A stretch of 64,000 nt of DNA from Geothrix fuzhouensis (GTDB lineage Bacteria; Acidobacteriota; Holophagae; Holophagales; Holophagaceae): contig NZ_JANHMQ010000001.1 of assembly GCF_024609325.1 (NCBI RefSeq), forward strand, positions 1,302,001-1,366,000, written 5' to 3'. This document shows positions 5,094-37,156 of the stretch, piece after piece; the stretch's first letter is position 1; each line of letters begins with the position of its first letter. A model generated the notes under the pieces. It worked only from the letters and a program-made list of their open reading frames with translations. It searched no databases and had not been told where the DNA came from. The translations under genes were made by a program, and so were the position numbers.

Positions 5094-6167
5094 TTACGCT
5101 TCCAACGCCTGCAGCCGCTCTGCTTCGAACGCGGCCCGCAGGGGTTCGATGATGGGTTCGAGCTGGCCAGACATGAAGCTGTCGATCTGGTGGATGGTGA
5201 CGCCGATGCGGTGATCGGTGACGCGGCCCTGGGGGAAGTTGTAGGTGCGGATCTTTTCGCTACGGTCGCCACTGCCCACCTGGGACTTACGCAACGCCGA
5301 GTGGATCGCATCGGCTTCATCCTGGGCCTTCTGGAGCAGGCGACTGCGCAGCACCGTCATGGCCTTGGCCATGTTCTTGATCTGGCTGCGCTCGTCCTGG
5401 CAGCTCACCACAGTGTTGGTCGGCAAATGGGTGAGGCGCACGGCGGAGTAGGTGGTGTTCACACTCTGGCCGCCCTTGCCACCGGAGCAGAAGGTGTCGA
5501 TGCGCAGATCCTTCGGGTGGATCTCGATATCCACCTCCTCGGCCTCGGGCATGACCGCCACAGTGGCTGCGGACGTGTGGATGCGGCCCTGGGTCTCAGT
5601 CTTGGGCACACGCTGGACACGGTGTACGCCGCTTTCGAAGCGGAAGAGGCTGTAGGCGCCCTCGCCCTGGATCTCCGCCGTGGCCTCCTTGAGCCCGCCC
5701 GCGTCGGCGTCGCTTTCGTCTAGTACCGATACCTTGAAGCCCCGGCGCTCCGCGAAGCGGATGTACATGCGGAACAGCTCTGCGGCGAACAGCGCGGCTT
5801 CCTCGCCACCGGTGCCGGCGCGGACTTCGAGGATCACGTTCTTCTCGTCAGCCGGATCCTTGGGGATGAGCAGGCGCTTGATCTCCGCCTCGCCTTCGGC
5901 GATGGCCTTCTTGAGGTCGGGGATTTCCAGCTCCGCCATCTCCCGCAGTTCGGCGTCCATGGACTTGTCGCCCAGAATGAGCTCAGCCTCCTCCATTTGC
6001 CTCAAGCGGGTGCGCTGGGCCTGGAAGGCCAGCACCACCGGCTCCAGCTCGGCACGGAGCTTGGCCAGCTCGCGCAGACGCTTGGGATCCGACACCACAG
6101 TGGGATCCTGCAGCTGCGCCTCCACTTCCTGGAAGCGGGCTTCGACGGCTTCAAGCTGATCGAGCAT
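5094..6167 (-). CDS. prfA: Peptide chain release factor 1
   Basis: This 357-residue class I release factor recognises UAA and UAG in the ribosomal A site. The peptidyl-hydrolysis motif GGQ is present in SGGKGGQSVN near residue 228, and the RF1-type codon-recognition tripeptide appears as PKT in RVPKTETQGR. Length is typical. The ATG at 6167 has GAGGTG upstream. It lies downstream of rpmE on the same strand, with a strong terminator between them, so it probably has its own promoter. Confidence 0.96.
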   Translation of the reverse strand: MLDQLEAVEARFQEVEAQLQDPTVVSDPKRLRELAKLRAELEPVVLAFQAQRTRLRQMEEAELILGDKSMDAELREMAELEIPDLKKAIAEGEAEIKRLLIPKDPADEKNVILEVRAGTGGEEAALFAAELFRMYIRFAERRGFKVSVLDESDADAGGLKEATAEIQGEGAYSLFRFESGVHRVQRVPKTETQGRIHTSAATVAVMPEAEEVDIEIHPKDLRIDTFCSGGKGGQSVNTTYSAVRLTHLPTNTVVSCQDERSQIKNMAKAMTVLRSRLLQKAQDEADAIHSALRKSQVGSGDRSEKIRTYNFPQGRVTDHRIGVTIHQIDSFMSGQLEPIIEPLRAAFEAERLQALEA

Positions 6168-6288
6168 GGCTCACCTCGGGATCCGGCGCCCTATCTGGGG
6201 GCAAAAACCCTGGGCCGGCTGTGCCGGAACTGGGCGTGGGGGCCCGGGAGTGTGCGCGCAGCGCGGAACCCCCGGACAGCATAAACAA

Positions 6289-36295: not shown

Positions 36296-36349
36296 GCGCC
36301 TAGGCCCTTGTATCAGCGGGCGTTCAATAAGAAGGGAAAGAACATTTTC

Positions 36350-36440
36350 CACCACCAAGGCACCAAGACCACCAAGACCACCAAGAACGGAAAAAGCACA
36401 TGGCCCTGGCTTTCCTTGGTGCTTTGGTGTCTTGGTGGTG
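36350..36440. repeat. Inverted repeat built of CCACCAAGA-type 9-mers
   Basis: The left arm has repeated CACCAAGAC units (period 8-9) and the right arm is their complement (CCTTGGTG, TTTGGTGTCTTGGTGGTG), separated by about 35 bases. It lies between the ends of two convergent genes and can fold into a long imperfect hairpin. Confidence 0.75.
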
Positions 36441-36468
36441 TTCTCTGCCTTTTGAAGGCGAGGTTGTA

Positions 36469-37002
36469 TCAGGGTTTGCCGGACTTCAACCGGATCGTCT
36501 GGCCATCCACCACGAAGACCCCATACCCGTGGTGGTGGAGGGTCTTCGGCTTCTTCTGCGCGGGATCGATCTAGGCCTGGACCACCTCCAGCACGAAGAG
36601 GTTGTACCGGTTCACGAAGCGCGTATCCACGACCCGGCACTCCAGGTTCGCGAAGCACTCGGCCACCCGCGGCGCGGCCACTTTCTTCGCCGGCAGGGGC
36701 GTGAGGCCAAAGACCGCAAACTTGTCGACATCCCGGCCCGAGGCGTTGCCCACCTTCACCACCTGCTTCGCCAGCCCGGCCGCGGGGATCGCGATCACGC
36801 ACTCCCGCGTTTTCCGCAGGGCCTCGAAGCTGTGGTTGGCGCCGCTCACCAGGCAGCCCACCAGGGGCGGATTGAACTCCATCATCATGTGCCAGGACAT
36901 GGCCATGACGTTGGCGCGCCCCCGGTGGGCCGTGGTGAGCAGCACCACGGGGCCAGGCTCCAGCAGGGTGTACACCTCCGACAGTGGAAGGGCCCTCCTC
37001 AT
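36469..37002 (-). pseudogene. Flavin reductase-like gene interrupted by in-frame TAG
   Basis: The first 143 codons (36571-37002; ATG with AAGGAGG upstream) encode a flavin reductase/FMN-binding split-barrel protein (VVLLTTAHRGRANVMAMSW, LVGCLVSGANHSFEALR, VNRYNLFVLEVVQA). At 36571-36573 the frame meets TAG. It then continues in the same frame for 33 more codons, IDPAQKKPKTLHHHGYGVFV and beyond, to TGA at 36469-36471. These residues match the expected end of the family, and a Trp codon (TGG) is usual at the TAG position. The gene therefore looks disabled by one base change, unless the amber codon is read through or the shortened protein still works. Confidence 0.8.
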
Positions 37003-37098
37003 GGCGCGCCTCCTTCCCTCCGCCACCCTTTCCAGGGTTGGCCCGATCCAAGCCTACGCCGGGCCGGAAGAGCTGGGTCTGCTCCCGATGGAGAAAAA

Positions 37099-37116
37099 TG
37101 CAACCAAGGGGTTGCA
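37099..37116. promoter_or_regulatory. Upstream operator copy for the SRPBCC-ArsR operon
   Basis: TGCAACC-AAGG-GGTTGCA is a perfect 7-bp inverted repeat with a 4-base spacer. It overlaps a weak -35-like TTGCAT, which stands 16 bases before TAACAT. ArsR-type dimers bind such palindromes, and the regulator gene is in the same operon. Confidence 0.6.
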
Positions 37117-37138
37117 TCAATTCCCGATTCGCCTAACA

Positions 37139-37156
37139 TGCAACCAGGAGGTTACA
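37139..37156. promoter_or_regulatory. Downstream operator copy for the SRPBCC-ArsR operon
   Basis: TGCAACC-AGGA-GGTTACA repeats the upstream palindrome with one mismatch, centred exactly 40 bases further on. It covers the AGGAGG ribosome-binding site of the SRPBCC gene, so binding there would block initiation as well. Confidence 0.6.

Follow-up and report, generated by a model that had tools for sequence, protein, structure and literature searches.

An in-frame amber codon in a Geothrix flavin reductase-family gene is most likely an ordinary, very young nonsense allele

Among the first steps of gene decay in bacteria, base substitutions that turn a sense codon into a nonsense codon are assumed to be one of the most frequent (PMC13345370), and young nonsense pseudogenes of this kind combine a single such change with a near-intact frame and intact copies in relatives. 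An in-frame TAG followed by conserved downstream sequence is likewise a feature of amber recoding and programmed read-through, for example at pyrrolysine codons. The flavin reductase-like gene analysed here, which lies in a 64,000-nucleotide stretch of the genome of a Geothrix soil bacterium (the whole stretch is referred to as the window), resembles both. It differs from amber recoding in that no amber tRNA or PylS was found in its genome, its TAG is not conserved and release factor 1 (RF1) is present. It differs from the described young pseudogene in that its loss of function is judged from the lost conserved tail.

The closest counterparts of the gene product comprise an intact orthologue in Geothrix oryzisoli SG189, a member of the PF01613 (Flavin_Reduct) family that resembles the window copy over its full length, past the stop, at 95% identity, and PDB entry 3e4v ('NADH:FMN oxidoreductase like protein'), in which Trp144 and a His-His pair align. 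Where both of these have Trp144, the window copy has TAG. No published report on this flavin reductase gene was found in the literature.

The interrupted gene and its homologues

The genome carrying the locus (Geothrix, 3.3 Mb) is assembled in 6 contigs and is 97% complete. The features of the gene are as follows.

Window 36469..37002, minus strand: PF01613 flavin reductase-like gene of 177 codons plus TGA, broken by an in-frame TAG
Window 36571..36573, minus strand: in-frame TAG at codon 144, which is TGG in close relatives (translation and homologue comparison)
Window 36472..36570, minus strand: 33 post-stop codons encoding the family's conserved C-terminal tail, which holds the invariant His156-His157 (homologue comparison)
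Window 36667..36669, minus strand: codon 112, read as Arg (CGG); the site is Leu in 77 of 80 homologues (homologue comparison)

The minus-strand frame from 37002 to 36469 translates as M...VVQA*IDPAQKKPKTLHHHGYGVFVVDGQTIRLKSGKP*, with its final TGA at 36471-36469, 33 codons past the TAG. When scored with X placed at the stop, it matches the Pfam profile of PF01613 at 108 bits (cut-off 27) over residues 16-158, so that the stop at codon 144 falls within the domain. These data bear out an earlier note on this DNA, which had described one amber codon inside a flavin reductase frame with conserved sequence beyond it. The similarity after the TAG is also real rather than due to chance, as all 177 residues align to intact orthologues; those of the same genus are 95, 94, 91, 84 and 81% identical over their full length and are all stop-free.

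When aligned at the nucleotide level with five close relatives in Geothrix, the coding region was gapless, ended at the same TGA and differed at codon 144 by a single G-to-A change. The relatives thus do not end at that TAG, and TGG was found at codon 144 in all seven aligned orthologues of the Geothrix group, as the earlier note had anticipated in proposing a tryptophan codon at this position. Among 116 distinct homologues, the window gene included, codon 144 was TGG in 106 and TAG in two; the other eight proteins, most of them distant, have Tyr, His, Ser or Cys there. TGG therefore occupies the position in 106 of the 115 homologues other than the window gene. In a set of 80 homologues drawn from GTDB species genomes, the tail after position 144 was 33 residues long in every one, and His156-His157 was invariant (80/80). 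The TGG of the relatives and the fixed length of the conserved tail indicate that the tail is genuine protein sequence and the TAG derived; TGG in all close relatives is also what marks the stop of a recent nonsense pseudogene as derived. Barring a sequencing error, these comparisons establish a G-to-A nonsense mutation of Trp codon 144.

A second TAG at the same codon, again with the tail intact, was found in a metagenome-assembled genome of the Acidobacteriaceae, PLGM01000382.1 (locus L172/L233; positions 799-1332 of L172). The closest relatives of that gene (94 and 93% identical) have TGG at codon 144, so its TAG is a second, independent and recent event. Judged by these alignments, the TAG shared by two unrelated genomes is not a conserved recoding site. 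No CTA anticodon was present among the 32 tRNAs found in the PLGM01000382.1 genome, the assembly of which is fragmented. Across 396 genomes surveyed from the phylum and 398 from the second carrier's family, no flavin reductase copy with a stop was seen besides the two TAG carriers, nor any lineage with a fixed short form.

Recurrence of the TAG was considered as a sign of function and rejected as being compatible with chance. Three stops were seen across the 116 homologues, two of them at codon 144; with only ~5.5 stop-prone codons per gene (those one transition from a stop), and with two such routes open to TGG, this share fits a chance expectation. That a second lineage has acquired TAG at this very Trp codon is accordingly a small curiosity. 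A further homologue is interrupted elsewhere, by TGA at codon 29 (CAIQIR010000174.1; locus L111, 2001-2522).

Decoding of UAG in this genome

The window itself contains the gene for the release factor that acts at UAG.

Window 5100..6170 (contig 1307100-1308170, offset 1302000), minus strand: prfA, peptide chain release factor 1 (RF1), intact, terminates at UAG (family match above cut-off)

The search for an amber suppressor tRNA or pylS that the earlier note had recommended was run, and neither was found. None of the 46 tRNA genes of the Geothrix genome has a CTA anticodon, a count that an unusual tRNA might escape, and the best match to the PylS profile in the 97% complete assembly reached 22.5 bits, where the cut-off is 178; matches at about this level also occurred in 13 of 14 control genomes. 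UAG closes other reading frames that are conserved in relatives, such as one ending at window 40004. RNA around the stop folded no better than shuffled sequence (z-score -0.71), giving no sign of a stimulatory structure. Over the ~29 kb of the window that can be aligned to relatives' frames, the flavin reductase TAG is in our judgement the only stop that interrupts a true coding frame. Inspection of the other apparent internal stops placed them in antisense shadow frames or at differences in start or end, and they were set aside.

Amber recoding was rejected on the presence of RF1 and the absence of a CTA tRNA and of a PylS match above cut-off. Programmed read-through is recognised by a conserved stop together with a conserved extension; here the extension is conserved and the relatives of both TAG carriers have TGG. 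Conserved read-through was likewise rejected, the TAG being confined to two genes in the surveys of 396 and 398 genomes. Special decoding of this TAG is thus not supported, and amber recoding in Geothrix should not be argued from this stop.

A probable young nonsense allele and its alternatives

The reading that we favour, at a probability of roughly 80%, is a recent G-to-A change of Trp144 (TGG) to TAG in this Geothrix lineage, giving a young loss-of-function allele. A single-base change would have converted the codon in a flavin reductase-family gene, RF1 would end translation there, and the resulting 143-residue product would be without the end of the last long strand and the conserved His-His tail, with activity presumably lost. 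The low level of decay at other positions would reflect the short time since that loss. The strands come from a structure model of low confidence (mean pLDDT 56), which was taken as a hint only and predicts them at residues 135-146, 155-159, 162-165 and 168-171; on this model, the truncated product would lack the end of the last long strand. In the alignment with 3e4v, the closest solved sequence, which reaches residue 174, both the Trp and the His-His pair are kept. Loss of the tail with its invariant His-His, together with the end of the strand, suggests that the shortened protein probably misfolds or has no activity.

The remainder of the gene is consistent with a recent event. Its dN/dS of 0.11-0.17 against five Geothrix relatives points to purifying selection until recently. 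The earlier note had stated that there was no other damage; this holds for the intact downstream frame and the low level of decay, and it overlooked L112R at a site that is 96% Leu (Leu in 77, Arg in two and Met in one of the 80 homologues). We regard L112R as another suspicious change in this copy, one that two homologues share. A general GC-to-AT excess marks the window branch, in this gene as well as in its neighbours (a comparison that leaves out the PEBP gene), and the TGG-to-TAG change agrees with this trend. As a sign of decay of the flavin reductase gene, the excess was rejected, since neighbouring genes on the same branch behave alike. The gene is patchy across the genus, suggesting that it is probably dispensable. 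A plasmid search with the locus gave no near match.

Of the three explanations that the earlier note had left side by side (nonsense change, sequencing error and read-through), the TGG of relatives favours a recent nonsense change, while read-through gained no supporting feature. An error of sequencing or assembly in a gene that is really intact would fit a case that hangs on one base with everything else in place. This is the main reservation about the favoured reading, yet it is quite unlikely, given an assembly of 6 contigs at 97% completeness, the unusual L112R in the same gene and the match of the change to the branch's GC-to-AT trend. It is also unlikely that the stop is tolerated because the last 34 residues are dispensable and a 143-residue protein still works. 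The low dN/dS ahead of the stop and the matching TAG of the unrelated Acidobacteriaceae genome would be expected on that account, but the stop cuts the Pfam domain, tail length and His-His are kept in 80/80 homologues, the genomes surveyed revealed no fixed short-form lineage, and two stops at one of ~5.5 stop-prone codons are compatible with chance.

Near-cognate tRNAs might instead insert a residue at UAG and yield enough full-length enzyme. The intact and similar post-stop frame in two independent genomes is consistent with such read-through, as are the few distant homologues with Tyr, His, Ser or Cys, which imply that residues besides Trp can be accommodated at position 144. Any young mutation would likewise be expected to leave the tail intact, however, and with RF1 present, no amber tRNA, no RNA structural signal and the TAG conserved in neither carrier's lineage, we consider this very unlikely. 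Even more doubtful is a combination of the two ideas, in which Acidobacteriota would repeatedly tolerate an amber at codon 144 and make a fraction of full-length enzyme by near-cognate read-through. A reassignment of UAG to sense in this organism, through pyrrolysine, a suppressor tRNA or a code change, is scarcely credible: its sole support is the in-frame TAG itself, set against an RF1 match above the family cut-off, the missing CTA anticodon, a PylS score at the level of most controls and the conserved frames that TAG terminates. The flavin reductase gene, from a known enzyme family, is therefore most likely an ordinary nonsense allele of very recent origin. The gene should be annotated as interrupted, a correction of little importance beyond annotation.

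Repeats flanking the gene

A palindromic repeat with CACCAAG / CTTGGTG arms occupies window 36332-36451, between the end of the flavin reductase gene and a convergent PEBP-like gene. It is missing at this site in the five close Geothrix relatives, and similar sequence occurs at ~20 places of the same genome, so that it belongs to a dispersed and probably mobile family. On the other side, between the flavin reductase gene and a divergent SRPBCC-ArsR pair, two operator-like repeats of the type ATGCAACC-N4/6-GGTTGCAT lie 40 bases apart (window 37095-37156). They are conserved in three other Geothrix genomes and are possibly binding sites of that pair's ArsR-type regulator.
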